Assembly (NCBI GenBank): GCA_016870915.1
Contig: VFZY01000031.1
Coordinates: 1-41,671, forward strand
DNA from: Acidobacteriota bacterium
GTDB taxonomy: Bacteria; Acidobacteriota; Terriglobia; Bryobacterales; Bryobacteraceae
Length of the DNA: 41,671 nucleotides
Direction: 5' to 3'
Below are positions 6,695 to 26,444 of the stretch, piece after piece. Position 1 is the first letter of the stretch, and the number at the start of each line of letters is the position of its first letter. The position numbers and the translations under genes were made by a program. Below the pieces are notes generated by a model that saw only the letters and a program-made list of their open reading frames with translations, had not been told where the DNA came from and did no database searches.

Positions 6695-7786
6695 ATGGAA
6701 TCCGAGTCCCAACAGCCCGTCAACGGACCGGTTCCCCAGTTTCTGGTGGCCTGGGATCAGGACCCCCTCAAGCCCCGCCCCCGCCGAGCCGCGATGCTTT
6801 CGCTTCTGGCACACGCCGTGCTGGCGCTGATTCTTATCCTGTTGCCGGCCGAAGTCTGGCAGGTGAAAATCCGTCAATGGAATCCGCTGGAGGCTGCCTT
6901 GCAGCGTTCCACTCCCTTGGTTGCGCCGCGCTTCGAACTCACGCAGAAGGACCCCAACCAGGGCCGGATCAGCAAAGAGATCAACCTGCAGGCGCTCACG
7001 GCCCCGCGTATGGCCGCGCCGCCTTCGCCGCCCCCGGCTGTCAAACCTCAGGAGAACCCCACGCCGGCGCGCCCGGCCCCGCCCCAACCGCAATTCCGTC
7101 CCGCGCCGCCCCAGCCGCAGATTCTCGCCGAGCCGCCCAAGATCGAACAGGAAACCCGCCTGGCCCAAGGCCCGCCACCCACGCTGGGCAATGCCGCGCA
7201 GGGCCTCCCTGGGCCGCCGCCCCCGCCACCCAAGGAGAACCCGAAACTCACCTTTGAAACACCCGGTGCACCCAGCGGCATCCCCACGGCGCGCGGGCGA
7301 ATTGCCCCGCCCAAACCCGGTCTTGAGGAGGCCATCCGCGGCGCCGCCCACGCCGCCGCCAGTTCCTCGGGAGGCGTCGTCGTTTCCGACCTCGGCGAGC
7401 AGCCTCAAGGCCTAGGCGACATCTTCCGTCAGCAGCAACAGCCGGGCCGCACGGGCAGCAGTCTGGAACTCCTCAGCGACCCTCAGGGCGTCGATTTCCG
7501 CCCCTATCTCCGCCGCATTCTGCTCATTGTCAAGCGCAACTGGATGTCTGTGATTCCTGAAAGCGCACGCTTTGGCCGCCAGGGCAAAGTGGCCATTCAG
7601 TTCGCCATCAGTCGAGATGGCCGCGTGCCAAAGCTCGTAATTGCCATGGGCAGCGGGACCGACGCGCTGGATCGGGCCGCGGTGGCCGGAATCAGCGCCT
7701 CAAACCCGTTCCCGCCACTTCCCGCTGAGTTCAAGGGCGATCAGGTCCGGCTCCAGTTTTCGTTCCTCTACAACATGCCGCAATGA
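6695..7786 (+). CDS. TonB-family energy transducer-like protein
   Basis: A 363-residue protein with the layout of TonB/TolA. It has a short cytoplasmic N-terminus, one membrane helix (about res 32-51), a long Pro-rich periplasmic stretch (about 108-200, repeated PPPQ/APPQPQ motifs) and a C-terminal domain. That domain (about 270-363) carries TonB-like features: WMSVIPESARFGRQGKVAIQ, then ISRDGRVPKL. The ATG at 6695 is chosen because it gives the expected cytoplasmic head; upstream sequence in this frame overlaps the oxidoreductase gene. No exbB/exbD genes are adjacent. Its place after lpxA-lpxI suggests outer-membrane function. TolA-like is an alternative. Confidence 0.82.
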   Translation: MESESQQPVNGPVPQFLVAWDQDPLKPRPRRAAMLSLLAHAVLALILILLPAEVWQVKIRQWNPLEAALQRSTPLVAPRFELTQKDPNQGRISKEINLQALTAPRMAAPPSPPPAVKPQENPTPARPAPPQPQFRPAPPQPQILAEPPKIEQETRLAQGPPPTLGNAAQGLPGPPPPPPKENPKLTFETPGAPSGIPTARGRIAPPKPGLEEAIRGAAHAAASSSGGVVVSDLGEQPQGLGDIFRQQQQPGRTGSSLELLSDPQGVDFRPYLRRILLIVKRNWMSVIPESARFGRQGKVAIQFAISRDGRVPKLVIAMGSGTDALDRAAVAGISASNPFPPLPAEFKGDQVRLQFSFLYNMPQ

Positions 7787-10822: not shown

Positions 10823-10837
10823 CGTCTAGTCTAGACG
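10823..10837. repeat. Perfect 15-bp inverted repeat at the 3' end of the hyi-like gene
   Basis: cgtctag-t-ctagacg is a palindrome with 7-bp arms and a single central base. It includes the TAG stop of the hydroxypyruvate-isomerase-like gene. It is short for a terminator and has no U-tract. It may be a protein-binding site or a by-product of local duplication. Confidence 0.4.
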
Positions 10838-11697
10838 TCGCAAATCTTGACGCCTTGGGCGAGCGAGGCGAACTTGTCTTCCCGGGCGGGGATGAATTCC
10901 TGACCGACGAAGCCTTTGTAGCCGGTTTCGACGATGGCCTTCATGATGGCGGGGTAGTGGAGTTCCTGGGTCTCGTCGATTTCGTGACGGCCGGGGACGC
11001 CTCCGGTGTGGTAGTGGGCGATGTAGGCGTGGTACTTCTTGATGGTCGCGATGACGTCGCCCTCCATGATCTGCATGTGGTAGATGTCGTAGAGCAGTTT
11101 GAAGTTTTCAGAGCCGACACGGCGGCAGAGCTCGACGCCCCATTCGGTCTTGTCGCACTGGTAGTCCTTGTGGTTGACCTTGGAGTTGAGAAGCTCCATG
11201 ACCAGCGTCACCTTGTTCTTCTCGCAGGCGGACATGAGCCGCTTGACGCCCTGGGCGCAGTTTTCGATGCCCTTGTCGTCGGCGAGGCCGTCACGATTGC
11301 CGGAAAAGCAGATGACGTTCTTGAGGCCGGCCGCGGCGGCCTTGGGGATGTAGTCCTCGTAGGCGGCGACAAGTTTGTCGTGGTGTTCCACGCGGTTGAA
11401 TGCCTTGGGGATGCCGCCCAGGCCGTCGACGGTGGGATTGGTTGCCATGGCGCAGGTAATGCCGTGTTTGGCGACGGTTGGCCAGTCCGCGGGGCCCAGC
11501 AGTTCGATGCTCGAAAGTCCGAACTTCTTGCCGGCTTCGCACAGCTCGTCGAGTGGCACGCGGGGGTAGCACCACTTGCACACAGAGTGGTTCACGTTGC
11601 CTTTGCTGGCCGTGTCGGCGGCGTGGAGCCGCTGGGCGAGTGAGGCCGCAAGGCCGGCGGCGGTGGAAAGAAGGGCGGAACGGCGTGATGGAGTCAT
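10831..11697 (-). CDS. Exported hydroxypyruvate isomerase-like TIM-barrel protein
   Basis: A 288-residue AP-endonuclease-2/xylose-isomerase-type TIM barrel closest in motifs to hydroxypyruvate isomerase (COG3622). Candidate metal ligands are Glu168 (VMELLNSK), Asp204 (YDIYHMQ), His230 (HYHTGG) and Glu267 (GQEFIP). Unlike cytoplasmic Hyi it carries an N-terminal SRRSALLSTAAGLAASLAQ segment, a Tat-like or Sec signal, implying export. Other Acidobacteria and Planctomycetes have similar exported barrels in sugar metabolism, so 'sugar isomerase/epimerase' is the safer description. TACACT lies 14 nt upstream of the ATG. It is 33 nt downstream of the permease gene. Confidence 0.85.
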   Translation of the reverse strand: MTPSRRSALLSTAAGLAASLAQRLHAADTASKGNVNHSVCKWCYPRVPLDELCEAGKKFGLSSIELLGPADWPTVAKHGITCAMATNPTVDGLGGIPKAFNRVEHHDKLVAAYEDYIPKAAAAGLKNVICFSGNRDGLADDKGIENCAQGVKRLMSACEKNKVTLVMELLNSKVNHKDYQCDKTEWGVELCRRVGSENFKLLYDIYHMQIMEGDVIATIKKYHAYIAHYHTGGVPGRHEIDETQELHYPAIMKAIVETGYKGFVGQEFIPAREDKFASLAQGVKICDV

Positions 11698-21882: not shown

Positions 21883-23385
21883 TCAGGCGTTCTTGAGGAG
21901 TTGCCGGGCTTCGGTGAGGACCTTCGAATCGGGGTCCGAGGGGGACTTCATGTAGTAGAGCATTCCGGCGGCGAGATGAGGCTGGAATGCCGTTGCTGCG
22001 AGGGGCACATCCTCAATCAGGGCGGCGAGGTACTTGTAATAGTGCACTTCATCGCCTTTGGCGAGGACATGGCGGATGGCGGCGTTGACGAGATCGCGCC
22101 GTTCGGCGGCGAGGATGTGGGAGGCGGCCTGATCGGGCGAGGCGGCGAGCGCGGCGAAGGCCGCGTCGACTGAGGGCTGGGCGCCGGGTCGGATGGCGGT
22201 GATGGGGAAGGGCCGGAGGTCCTTTTCGCGCGACTCGCTCCAAACGCGGAACTGCGCGCTCCAGCCGGCGGCCTGGAGGAGCAGGAGAAGGCGGGTGCGG
22301 GGATCCACGGCGGCGTGGTAGCCATGGCGGAGGCCGTTCATGGCGGTGACGGCATGGATGCCTGCGATGACCGACGCCCCCCGGGTGCGCATGGCGAGTT
22401 CGACGGCAGAGAGGTGCACCGCGTCCCAGGCGGCGCCCGCGGGGACGCCTTTCTCGAGGGCGGAGGCGACGGCCTGGCTGGAGGCATCCGGGGAGCCGGT
22501 TCGGAGGGCAGCGAGGAGTTCGCGCGAGGCTTCCGGGTTGTGTGCGGCGGAGGCCCAGGCGGGCTTGAGGCGCGGGTAGATGTCCATCAGGCGGCCGATG
22601 TTGGTGTGATAGCACTGATCGAGCCAGGCGTAGCCGTTGACGGTCTGGTCCTTGCCGAAGTCAAGGAGTGCGAGAACGAGAGAGCGCACGACTGGTTCCG
22701 CGTGGCGCCAGCCGATGGTTTGGAGCGTGCGGTGGGCGTTGGCGGTGTAGATAGCCTTGTGGCCGATGTTCCGGTAATCACGGGCGCCAAACTGCCAGAG
22801 AAGTCCGAAGACATCCTCGGGGGAGCGGTGGCGAACTAGGGACACGGCGGCGCGTTCGGCGCGTTCCATGTCCCAGGTGTCCATGGCGGCTGCGAGTTCG
22901 GATTCGGCGCGTCCGGCGGCGGGGATCGCGCCGCTGAGAGTGGTCATGGTGTAGTCGCCGGCTTTCTGCTTGAGGTCCCGGTCCTGTGCGCCCTTGAAGT
23001 TATCGAGGGCATAGAACAGGGGGAGGAGACGGTCTTCGGGTGCGGCTTCGAGGCCGAGCAGGTGAGCCGAGTGAATGACGAAGACGCAGTGAAGAGAGAA
23101 CCCCGGGGGCCTGGGGTTGACGTTGCGGATGCCGGCGAGAAAGAGAGCGCCAAGAAACTGGCGGTACGAGACGCCCTTGCGGAGGAGAGATGCGGCCATG
23201 GCTGCGGAACGGTCGCGGGGAGTGTCTTCAATGAGGCGGACGAGGGGTTCCATTTCCGATGAGAAACGGACGATATCGGGGCTGACGGCGGCGGCCGCGC
23301 GGGGCACGGCTAAAGGAGAGGCGGCGGCCAGGCCCAGGACGGTCCGCCTGGAGAAACGGCTGGAGTGCGGAGTTGAATTGGACAT
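21883..23385 (-). CDS. Tat-exported protein of unknown function
   Basis: A 500-residue protein with a twin-arginine signal (SRFSRRTVLGLAAASPLAVPRAAAA, about res 9-33) and a long, mostly helical body. His-rich stretches include HCVFVIHSAHLLGLEA (about 100-115) and NIGHKAIYTANAHRTLQTIGWRHAEP (about 205-230), plus YHTNIGRLMDIYPRLKP, any of which could bind a metal or haem. I do not recognise the family with confidence; a distant relation to questin-oxidase-like proteins is possible. The ATG at 23385 follows TATGCT by 9 nt and opens directly on the signal; the frame is open a further 112 codons upstream without similarity to anything. Confidence 0.72.
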   Translation of the reverse strand: MSNSTPHSSRFSRRTVLGLAAASPLAVPRAAAAVSPDIVRFSSEMEPLVRLIEDTPRDRSAAMAASLLRKGVSYRQFLGALFLAGIRNVNPRPPGFSLHCVFVIHSAHLLGLEAAPEDRLLPLFYALDNFKGAQDRDLKQKAGDYTMTTLSGAIPAAGRAESELAAAMDTWDMERAERAAVSLVRHRSPEDVFGLLWQFGARDYRNIGHKAIYTANAHRTLQTIGWRHAEPVVRSLVLALLDFGKDQTVNGYAWLDQCYHTNIGRLMDIYPRLKPAWASAAHNPEASRELLAALRTGSPDASSQAVASALEKGVPAGAAWDAVHLSAVELAMRTRGASVIAGIHAVTAMNGLRHGYHAAVDPRTRLLLLLQAAGWSAQFRVWSESREKDLRPFPITAIRPGAQPSVDAAFAALAASPDQAASHILAAERRDLVNAAIRHVLAKGDEVHYYKYLAALIEDVPLAATAFQPHLAAGMLYYMKSPSDPDSKVLTEARQLLKNA

Positions 23386-23563
23386 GGTGAGGGAAGCATA
23401 GCAAGTCCGGGCGGCGAGTGAAAGTAAAATCCTGACATCTGACGAAGCTTTCTCATCGTGGCCAAACCGGCGTCGCGATGGGAGTTGGCACGCGTCAGGC
23501 GTAGGGCCGGAACCGCCGGAGAGCCGCTTGAGCCGGGAGCACAGAGGAGAACCAAGACGACTT
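23386..23563. other. Gene-free stretch before the chemotaxis remnants
   Basis: Apart from the putative promoter at 23395-23400, I see no gene, repeat or terminator here. One plus-strand frame is open from about 23430 into the receiver fragment at 23564, but the part before the fragment matches nothing I recognise. Confidence 0.4.
23395..23400 (-). promoter_or_regulatory. Putative -10 element (TATGCT) of the Tat-exported protein gene
   Basis: TATGCT on the minus strand ends 9 nt before the ATG at 23385, implying a leader of about 2 nt. No Shine-Dalgarno is present. Confidence 0.4.
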
Positions 23564-23635
23564 GAACTTGACGTTCTGATCGTTGATAACTCGGCCGCGA
23601 TTCGGAAGATCCTGCATCGGGTGCCATCTGGGTGA
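23564..23635 (+). pseudogene. Fragment of a CheY-like receiver domain
   Basis: In one plus frame the sequence encodes ELDVLIVDNSAAIRKILHRV and then stops (TGA at 23633). This is the first strand and helix of a CheY-type receiver (the acidic pair is here D-N). No start codon precedes it and nothing of the remaining 100 residues follows. It is most likely a remnant of a response-regulator gene, next to the cheB remnant. Confidence 0.6.
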
Positions 23636-23701
23636 GGGAAAGCTTGGCATGTAACTCGGCTATGTGGCTGAGGACTGACTCGTGGCGTAATCGGGAGAAG
23701 T

Positions 23702-24191
23702 TTGCTCGTGAATGTTATCAAGGTTCTGATTGTTGACGATTTCGCGATTCTCCGCCGCGCGATCGCCGACTCGCTTCAGTGCGACCCCGGCATGGAAGTG
23801 GTGGCCGGTGCACCGGACCCCAGGCAACTACCACATGCAGCTTCGCCGAATGGAAGCCCGTTGCCGCATCCAACTGGATCAGGGTCGCATGGTGTGTTTC
23901 CAGCGTCCGGCCGTCGACGTGATGTTCGGGTCATTCGCCGAGGCAGCGGGCCGCCACACGATTGCCGCGCCTCTCACCGGTATGGGCGCCGATGGCGCGC
24001 GGGGAATGAACGTGCTGCTCGAGCGGAGTGCGCACACCATCGCTCAGGACGAGCTTTCCTGCGTGGTCTACGGCATGCCGCGGGAGGCGGTGAGGCTGGG
24101 TGCAGCCGAGAAGATCGCGCCGCTGAAGGACACCGCTCGCAAGATGTTGATGGCCGCCCAGCACCGATCCCGGCAACTGGTTAGCGCTTAG
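23702..24191 (+). pseudogene. cheB: cheB remnant: internally deleted and frameshifted
   Basis: Two parts of the chemotaxis methylesterase CheB are joined. From a GTG at 23708 (or TTG 23702) the first frame gives VNVIKVLIVDDFAILRRAIA and VVAGA, the start of a receiver domain (about 35 residues). After about 23810-23822 the next frame gives PGNYHMQL, QRPAVDVMFGSFA, LTGMGADGARGM and SCVVYGMPREA, the C-terminal third of the methylesterase domain. About 200 residues between them, including the receiver phospho-site and the catalytic Ser and His, are missing; only the Asp of GMGADG remains. The gene cannot make active CheB. Its end overlaps the convergent GH42-like gene. Confidence 0.85.
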
Positions 24192-24600
24192 GCGCCCCGC
24201 CACATCCGCGCAGGCCTTCTGCCGACACACGGGCGGCAATTTCACGGAGTGCCGCGATGAACTCCCGGCTATCGCCGTTTGGGGCCGGGCGATTTGCATC
24301 CACTCCGTCGAACGTAAAGGTCTCCAGGTCCGTGAAGGATTGGAAGTCCACGCCATACGCCTCGTTGAACCGTGTGATCGTGTAGCCGTAGCGGTCTTTC
24401 AGGAAACCGACGTAGGCCTGCTTGCCATCGGTTGACGCGCCCAGTTTCTGGAAATGGCGTACCCACGCCGGGCCGATCGAATCCGCGTCCACGGCCTGGC
24501 AAGCCCTGCGGACTTGCTCCCGCACCGCGGTGCGGGCGGTTTCGGAATAGAGATCCACCGGCTCGATCCTCAGCGACAGTAGCAGGAGCAGCGCCCACAT
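24181..24600 (-). CDS. Small exported protein with a GH42-like segment
   Basis: A 139-residue product starting with a hydrophobic segment (MWALLLLLSLRIEPVD), probably a short signal peptide. The middle, AYVGFLKDRYGYTITRFNEAYGVDFQSFTDL (about res 61-91), resembles the helix-turn segment of GH42-type barrels in which a Tyr-Gly-x-Ile...Asn-x-Ala-x-Gly-Thr pattern recurs, but the catalytic acid/base regions are absent. It may be a truncated enzyme or a repurposed domain. The ATG at 24600 is used; a TTG 2 codons upstream is also possible. It lies 6 nt downstream of the mqnA stop and is probably on the mqn transcript. Confidence 0.55.
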   Translation of the reverse strand: MWALLLLLSLRIEPVDLYSETARTAVREQVRRACQAVDADSIGPAWVRHFQKLGASTDGKQAYVGFLKDRYGYTITRFNEAYGVDFQSFTDLETFTFDGVDANRPAPNGDSREFIAALREIAARVSAEGLRGCGGAPKR

Positions 24601-24606
24601 GGCCAA

Positions 24607-25335
24607 CTATTCTACAAACGCGGTGGGCGGGCGCACTGGGAGCCCTTCGATCCCGAGGCGCCGGGAGAACTCGCCGATGGCTTCCTGCTGGCGTGGGCCA
24701 AGCTCGTAGCGGATGTGCTGGCAAAGATACTGGCGTTCGGCTTCGTTCGCCGCCAGGGCATGGCGCGCCGCTACGCCTGCCCGGCCCGCCTCCCGCAGGA
24801 GGCGCGCCGTTTCAGGTGGCGCGTCGTGGCGTAGAGCCCAGACGGCGAAGACGAAAGGCAGTCCGGTCCAACGTTTCCACTCTTCGCCCAGATCGAAGTA
24901 TCGCCAGTGGGGGTGGTTTTCACGGAATCGCAGTGCCTGGTCGCCAATCCAGAGCTGGGCGTTGGCCGGTTCACCTTGTGAGACATAATCCGGACGGAGC
25001 CCGGCCTGCTGGTGCAGCAGGACTCGCAGGAGTTGGACGGAGGTCCTGGATGCGGCGTCGAGCGCTACTCTGCACACCTCGGCGAGCGGTGTTTCATGGG
25101 CCAGGAATACGCTGTGCACCGGGCCGTCGCAGCCCACGCAGTAGCCATTGAGCACCTGGTAGGCGTCGTGTTCGAGGACCTCAACCACCGGGACCAGGGC
25201 GGCGTCGAGTTCGCCCGCTCGCAGCATGGCGCTGAGTTGCACCGGATGCGCCAGGTGCACTTCGCCCGGCAGTGCGTCAATCAACGGCCGCGCATTGAGA
25301 TAAGGAACCGACCCGATCCGGGCCCCGCCTGTCAT
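24607..25335 (-). CDS. mqnA: Chorismate dehydratase MqnA (futalosine pathway)
   Basis: A 242-residue MqnA/MqnD-fold protein, a periplasmic-binding-protein-like enzyme. MqnA dehydrates chorismate to 3-[(1-carboxyvinyl)oxy]benzoate, the first committed step of futalosine-route menaquinone synthesis. Signatures are IGSVPYLNARPL (start), AALVPVVEVL, and EEWKRWTGLPFVFAVWA near 150-165. The start is ATG 25335, overlapping the mqnE stop (TGATG), in preference to a TTG one codon upstream. Pairing with MqnE separates it from MqnD. mqnB, mqnC and mqnD are not in the window. Confidence 0.93.
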   Translation of the reverse strand: MTGGARIGSVPYLNARPLIDALPGEVHLAHPVQLSAMLRAGELDAALVPVVEVLEHDAYQVLNGYCVGCDGPVHSVFLAHETPLAEVCRVALDAASRTSVQLLRVLLHQQAGLRPDYVSQGEPANAQLWIGDQALRFRENHPHWRYFDLGEEWKRWTGLPFVFAVWALRHDAPPETARLLREAGRAGVAARHALAANEAERQYLCQHIRYELGPRQQEAIGEFSRRLGIEGLPVRPPTAFVE

Positions 25336-26444
25336 CAAGCCGTCACCAACTCCGGCATGCGGGCGTAGAAGGTATCGCGGCGGCGGGGCGTGCGGCCGGC
25401 CTGCCGGATGGCGCCTTCCAGGGTCTCGACGGTCTGTTGCTGGGGTGTCTGGGAGCCGGCCATGTGGAAGATGTACTCGCGGAAGATGGTTCCATGCAGA
25501 TCATCGACGCCGAAGTTCAAGGCGATCTGCGCCAGCGGCAGCCCCAGGCTTATCCAGTAACCGGTCAGGTGGCCGAAGTTGTCGAGATAGATTCGCGAAA
25601 CGGCCAGTGTTCGCAACTCGTCGTAGGCCGTGGCCCGCCCCAGGTGCGAGAGGGCGTTGTTCCTGGGCTCGAACGCATAGGGAATGAACGACGTGAAGCC
25701 GCCCGTCTCATCCTGCAGGCGGCGCAACTGGTCCAGGTGATCGACGCGATGGCCGATGTTTTCGACATGGCCATAGAGCATGGTGCAAGTGCTGCGCATT
25801 CCCATCTGGTGCCAGGTGCGATGCACTTCCAGCCACTCATCGGCTGATTCCTTGCCCCGGCAGATCTGGTCGCGCACGGCAGCGTCAAAGATCTCGGCGC
25901 CTCCTCCGGTGAGGGAATCGAGACCGGCATCCCGGAGCGCTTCGAGCGTCTGGCGGATGGACTGCTTGGCCACATGTTCCGCCAGGTGGCGAACTTCAAT
26001 GGCAGTGAAGGCCTTGACGGTCAGGCCCGGGCACCGCTGCTTGATGCCGCGCACCAGGCCGGTGTAGAAATCGAACGGCAGCTTGGGATGGAGCCCTCCC
26101 ACCATGTGGACCTCATTGGCTCCCTGCCGGTATGCCTCTTCCGCTTGTCCGATCAACTCGTCCGTGCCGTGAGTGAACGCGCCTTCCTGGTTCGGTTTCC
26201 TGGCGAACGAGCAGAACTGGCAACTCAGGTAGCAGACGTTCGAATAGTTCAAATAGGTGTTGAACACGTAGGTGGCGACTCGGCCGTTCTTGCGTTCGCA
26301 GACATGGTTGGCCAGTACGCCTAATGCGGCCAGGTCGCCGCAGGCAAATAGCCTTTCGCCCTCTTCGAAGGAAACGCGCCCGCCCGCCCACACTTTTTCG
26401 GCGATATCCGCGATACCCGCGCGTTCGAACGTCTCAGCTTGCAT
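25335..26444 (-). CDS. mqnE: Aminofutalosine synthase MqnE (radical SAM)
   Basis: A 369-residue radical SAM enzyme that joins the MqnA product with S-adenosylmethionine to form aminofutalosine. The [4Fe-4S] motif is C71-x3-C75-x2-C78 (CYLSCQFC). MqnE-type features outweigh MqnC-type ones: EVHMVGGLHPKLPF, VKAFTAIEVRHL, GGGAEIF, TMLYGHVENIGHRVDHL, and DNFGHLTGYWISLG. The start is ATG 26444, preceded by TAAAAT at 9 nt. It is coupled to mqnA. Menaquinone made this way would serve the respiratory chain used by the quinoprotein dehydrogenase found further along. Confidence 0.93.
   Translation of the reverse strand: MQAETFERAGIADIAEKVWAGGRVSFEEGERLFACGDLAALGVLANHVCERKNGRVATYVFNTYLNYSNVCYLSCQFCSFARKPNQEGAFTHGTDELIGQAEEAYRQGANEVHMVGGLHPKLPFDFYTGLVRGIKQRCPGLTVKAFTAIEVRHLAEHVAKQSIRQTLEALRDAGLDSLTGGGAEIFDAAVRDQICRGKESADEWLEVHRTWHQMGMRSTCTMLYGHVENIGHRVDHLDQLRRLQDETGGFTSFIPYAFEPRNNALSHLGRATAYDELRTLAVSRIYLDNFGHLTGYWISLGLPLAQIALNFGVDDLHGTIFREYIFHMAGSQTPQQQTVETLEGAIRQAGRTPRRRDTFYARMPELVTA

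Follow-up and report, generated by a model that had tools for sequence, protein, structure and literature searches.

What remains of the chemotaxis genes between positions 23561 and 24191 of this stretch, and to what did they once belong? The first-pass annotation had read the locus as the sign of a lost chemotaxis system, left behind as a stop-terminated CheY-like receiver start and a cheB gene without its middle. To answer the question, the window (the whole stretch of 41,671 nucleotides analysed here) is set beside the che loci of relatives and the rest of the host genome (G000), a draft of 6.6 Mb in 367 contigs that is 96.9% complete. The scar is very probably a pseudogene, the residue of a che operon reduced to its two ends by deletion. 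The earlier observation and its interpretation are borne out; new over them is that the scar probably keeps both ends of an operon known from relatives. This is ordinary gene decay of a familiar kind, yet it is a clear example. The features concerned are the following.

21883–23385, minus strand: 500-residue open frame with no Pfam score reaching the cut-off, with homologues in the order's other families (flank)
23544–23549, plus strand: GAGGAG 5′ of the cheY1 remnant, read off the sequence and Shine–Dalgarno-like by resemblance only
23561–23632, plus strand: 5′ end of a cheY1-type gene (LELDVLIVDNSAAIRKILHRV), recognized by blastp and profile scores
23624–23675, plus strand: possible continuation of the cheY1 remnant, indel-ridden, from DNA local alignments that are weak alone
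23708–23821, plus strand: 5′ part of the cheB remnant, a GTG start and the first 38 codons of the receiver domain (tblastn, profile)
23817–23822, plus strand: deletion junction, where receiver ...GCA CCG GAC CCC meets esterase ...CC CCA GGC AAC
23817–24191, plus strand: 3′ part of the cheB remnant, the last 124 methylesterase codons and the stop (PF01339), in the +1 frame relative to the 5′ part
24181–24606, minus strand: small converging open frame without a Pfam match (flank)
24607–25338, minus strand: mqnA-like menaquinone gene (PF02621, 154 bits; flank)

The first scrap, 23561–23632, is translated as LELDVLIVDNSAAIRKILHRVPSG and is closed directly by a stop codon at 23633–23635, just as the first-pass annotation had described it. 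It is 88% identical to the CheY of the relative G018 over 17 residues (blastp), and a cheY1-type profile built from 11 proteins gives it 26.0 bits (E 5.6e-7 within the window), against a maximum of 9.9 bits in 20 first-order random windows. Its scores with other receiver profiles are 12.6 bits for cheY2 (n = 5) and 11.9 bits for the CheB receiver (n = 78), a contrast that is somewhat circular because the 11 cheY1 sequences were chosen by their SAAIRK motif and the five cheY2 sequences by a motif of their own. The G018 match predates this motif-based choice, and the random-window control is independent of the contrast between models. At the DNA level, alignments to the cheY1 of eight relatives score 56–76, each higher than all 200 base shuffles, if barely so for G027 (56 versus 53); the local alignments reach 23673–23677 for G018, G002, and G012, and that of G028 ends at 23622. 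A 5-base insertion suggested by the G018 alignment was dropped, given that the LDVLIVD frame needs none against G002 and G028, and a tblastn frame match of G027 running 5′ of the CheY start is taken as a chance extension. The single-domain cheY1-type CheYs that head the che clusters of G002 and G028 have LDVLIVDxSAAIRKILxRV in common with the scrap. Unlike them, the scrap stops after about 24 codons, has lost most of the gene, and has no recognizable start codon, with no ATG, GTG, or TTG in its frame from 23540 up to the motif.

The second scrap is cheB. A GTG at 23708 opens VNVIKVLIVDDFAILRR...VVAGAPDP, 38 codons running to 23821, which are 41–60% identical to the CheB receivers of relatives over about 32–46 residues (tblastn) and reach 29.6 bits with a profile of 78 such receivers. 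This part is too short for a Pfam match above the cut-off (Response_reg, 14.2 bits; cut-off 30.2); a viral helicase model on the same frame, at 15.9 bits and under its cut-off of 21, is spurious. The 3′ part begins TPGNYHMQL..., ends with a stop codon at 24189–24191, and matches CheB_methylest (PF01339) in Pfam with 100.2 bits (1.5e-28, profile positions 71–173 of 174); the ten top-scoring other CheBs share 52–58% identity with it. Both components of a CheB methylesterase, the receiver and the PF01339 domain, are represented, and the earlier estimate of the first ~35 and last ~110 residues in different frames becomes 38 and 124 codons on measurement. Among the fetched loci, 108 frames match the esterase end, 97 of which also match the receiver start; in these 97 full-length frames, all distinct sequences (two pairs have identical last 100 residues), 185–222 residues with a median of 197 separate the same anchors. 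Relative to them, about 197 codons are absent from the remnant, and the comparison confirms that cheB records an internal, out-of-frame deletion. Its junction, previously placed at about 23,810–23,822, lies at 23817–23822, with about four bases (CCCC, 23818–23821) assignable to either side. The corresponding codons in full-length CheBs (30 of the 97 listed) commonly encode Ala-Pro-Asp-Pro in the receiver and Ala-Pro-Gly-Asn in the esterase.

The first-pass annotation had also held that the phospho-site and the catalytic Ser and His were removed. In Salmonella CheB, the phospho-site and the catalytic residues are D56, S164, H190, and D286; the stretches that remain are consistent with loss of the phospho-accepting Asp together with the catalytic Ser and His. 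The stretch of the catalytic Asp, GMGADGARG, is retained. In contrast to a full-length CheB, the remnant has an incomplete receiver and an incomplete methylesterase lying in two frames. Both cheB and cheY combine homology to intact genes of relatives with disabling lesions, namely, the internal deletion, the frame change, the early stop, and the cheY1 frame without a start, and the remaining pieces are unable to make a working CheY or CheB.

Against decay, the 3′ part of cheB has kept its reading frame free of stops and retains good conservation. Random sequences of the same composition have a 124-codon open frame in 7% of cases. In favour of decay, at 29 columns conserved in at least 90% of sequences, the remnant departs three times, once at the junction itself, compared with an average of 0.71 for the 97 others, 4 of which depart at three or more. 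The 153-codon frame at 23730–24191 has to be weighed as a retained small CheB C-terminal protein with a new role, for example, in binding a chemoreceptor or in interfering with another CheB: it is fully open, keeps the other 26 of the 29 columns as well as the catalytic-Asp stretch, and offers in-frame starts at TTG 23730 and ATG 23835. However, the remnant lacks the half of the domain with the active-site Ser and His, the same shortened frame is known from no second species, and the remnant's branch is longer than that of its sister, so that a retained function is very hard to credit.

A tree built on 112 columns of 38 CheB esterase ends places the remnant beside the CheB of G028 (support 86/80), and the two fall within an 18-member group (89/88) that includes every one of the 12 CheBs labelled beforehand as cluster type, a label resting on the frames around each CheB (in G011 and G035, the identity of cheY and cheX beside cheB is not established). 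Support in the tree is moderate, with stars on 3 of its 35 inner branches. The branch of the remnant measures 0.84 and that of its G028 sister 0.25; branch length alone proves little, because two full-length CheBs exceed the remnant, that of G059 (1.36) and that on contig 5 of the host genome (1.23). The latter is placed in a different part of the tree.

In G028 and G002, the two scraps correspond to the ends of one cluster. The G002 cluster, all on one strand, encodes a receiver, CheX, CheA, CheR, CheD, a second receiver, a second CheX, and CheB, with Pfam matches for 8 of 8; that of G028 has the same order (Pfam 7 of 8, the presumed CheD frame being without a match), with a CheW following CheB. 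Both thus read cheY1-cheX-cheA-cheR-cheD-cheY2-cheX-cheB, cheY1 first and cheB last. In the window, both end genes are found in this order and on one strand, with the CheY1 and CheB motifs 150 bases apart, compared with 5,284 bases in G002 and 4,994 in G028. Since two relatives have a CheY of this type at the head of the operon, both ends probably survive, and some 4.8–5.1 kb between them are gone. At least two deletions are recorded, because the two losses lie on either side of the retained cheB start. A further cluster containing both cheY1 and cheB, with motifs 4,015 bases apart, occurs in G018, but it is left out as a model of the operon because the G018 CheB belongs to another clade.

The positions of cheY1 and cheB in relatives bear on whether the two scraps belong together. 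Of 51 genomes, 21 contain a cheY1-type match (identity at least 53%), three of which place cheY1 at most 6 kb upstream of a co-directional cheB; in G027 the two share a contig in opposite orientations, and G005, G011, G012, and G013 have cheY1 about 1 kb or less from a CheW-domain match instead. These arrangements leave room for two unrelated scraps joined by rearrangement, cheY1 coming from a separate location and cheB from a different cluster. In 17 of the 21 genomes, there is no CheB on the contig of cheY1 (four of the 21, G005, G023, G025, and G053, have no CheB match), but contig breaks leave the number of separate cases uncertain. Moreover, the CheB closest in the tree, that of G028, comes from a cluster with both ends, and the two scraps are co-directional and ordered as in that cluster, so that a chance joining is improbable and the residue of a single operon is preferred.

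Whether the lost operon was the host's only chemosensory system is answered by the rest of the genome. As had been claimed, no intact che gene lies nearby: outside 23400–24300, tblastn with the frames of 24 fetched loci finds only a receiver match at 785–1360 and non-che genes, which by Pfam are a peptidase M20, an oxidoreductase, a TIM barrel, and a beta-propeller, plus one 94-residue frame without a Pfam match (this check covered the window matches other than those to the SDR-like frames of contig 210). The TIM-barrel gene (10831–11697), at a distance of 12 kb from the scar, is similar to one that lies close to cheB in G011. Elsewhere, contig 5 carries a cluster in the order receiver, CheW, MCP, CheA, CheB, CheW, in which CheB is intact. 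The host's three CheW-domain matches are all on contig 5, and of its three MCP matches, one each lies on contigs 5, 20, and 72, that on contig 72 being partial. On contig 20, apart from the contig 5 cluster, a 301-residue frame (L206, 10135–11037) has an MCP signalling domain. Besides the contig 5 CheB and the remnant, the genome holds a third CheB scrap on contig 210 (L144, 6118–6234, minus strand), with 35 matched residues among the best 8 of 85 matches, one alignment of which extends weakly to 6303. No other cheY1-type match is found in the host genome at E 1e-20, and no CheR over the cut-off; a weak CheR match, in a 372-residue frame, fits a general methyltransferase better. Flagellar matches comprise one FlhA-family, two flagellin-family, one FliG, and one FliM protein, and FliM starts MDAFGAFRMSDRVLTQQEIDNVF, resembling the CheY-binding start known in other bacteria. 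The proposed loss of a chemotaxis system therefore stands for one operon, not for all chemosensory genes: flagellar genes and another chemosensory cluster are kept. An intact che cluster elsewhere, which had been suggested as a check, is found on contig 5 as far as CheB is concerned, but a frame change inside the CheW domain (L143, about 7547–7628, minus strand) breaks its CheA in two, through either real decay or a sequencing error.

The same frame break bears on whether the scar could be an artefact of assembly or sequencing, an intact operon having collapsed in the contig. The host genome is a draft in 367 pieces, and the single break in the contig 5 CheA could likewise be an error. Nevertheless, such an artefact would have to bring two separate losses together with the stop, the indels, and the missing start of cheY1 to one place, and no extra CheW-domain or CheR copy over the cut-off is present, as an intact operon would leave. 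Direct repeats of 12 bases or more are also absent from 23300–24400, where any repeats of the lost DNA itself would be invisible. An artefact is accordingly considered quite unlikely, and the deletions are very probably real.

Given the operon of G002 and G028, an ancestor would have carried a co-directional cheY1-cheX-cheA-cheR-cheD-cheY2-cheX-cheB. The DNA between a point within cheY1 and the position immediately 5′ of cheB, roughly 5 kb, would have been lost in one deletion or several, and a further deletion, near 590 bases long and not divisible by three, would have taken the middle of cheB, plausibly between short chance matches of about four bases. The residue would since have been neutral. 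On this account, the scar documents, on a small and readable scale, the loss of an operon through internal deletions that leave both ends, and it raises the question of whether a bacterium bearing flagellar genes swims without this che operon, and of what steers its swimming.

In Actinobacteria, degenerate flagellar and chemosensory gene sets, absence of flagellar genes, and changes of chemosensory class have been reported (PMC10746217). Loss and pseudogenes in motility systems are common to both cases, while the phylum differs and the passages concerned describe no such scar. Among the papers listed, titles and abstract openings give no account of such a scar or of che loss in the host family. 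Within that family, an FlhA-family match without any CheW or MCP match occurs in 4 of 22 other genomes (G003, G008, G019, and G022), which is only a hint of flagella without chemotaxis, because PF00771, the FlhA family, includes type III secretion relatives and the four are drafts (91–96% complete). It may be speculated, with considerable doubt, that the family repeatedly uncouples flagella from chemotaxis and that the host genome is caught partway, one che operon down to two ends and its motor, filament, and switch genes kept along with the CheY-binding-like FliM start.

The flanks of the scar differ in their distribution. The right neighbour, mqnA, has a match in 57 of 61 genomes, and the left neighbour, the 500-residue frame, in 11 of 37, the host's included; within the family, the latter is found in one of 22 other genomes, G009. 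On contig 305 of G009 (2392–2906), a CheB methylesterase match lies in two pieces with an internal TAG, perhaps another decaying cheB.
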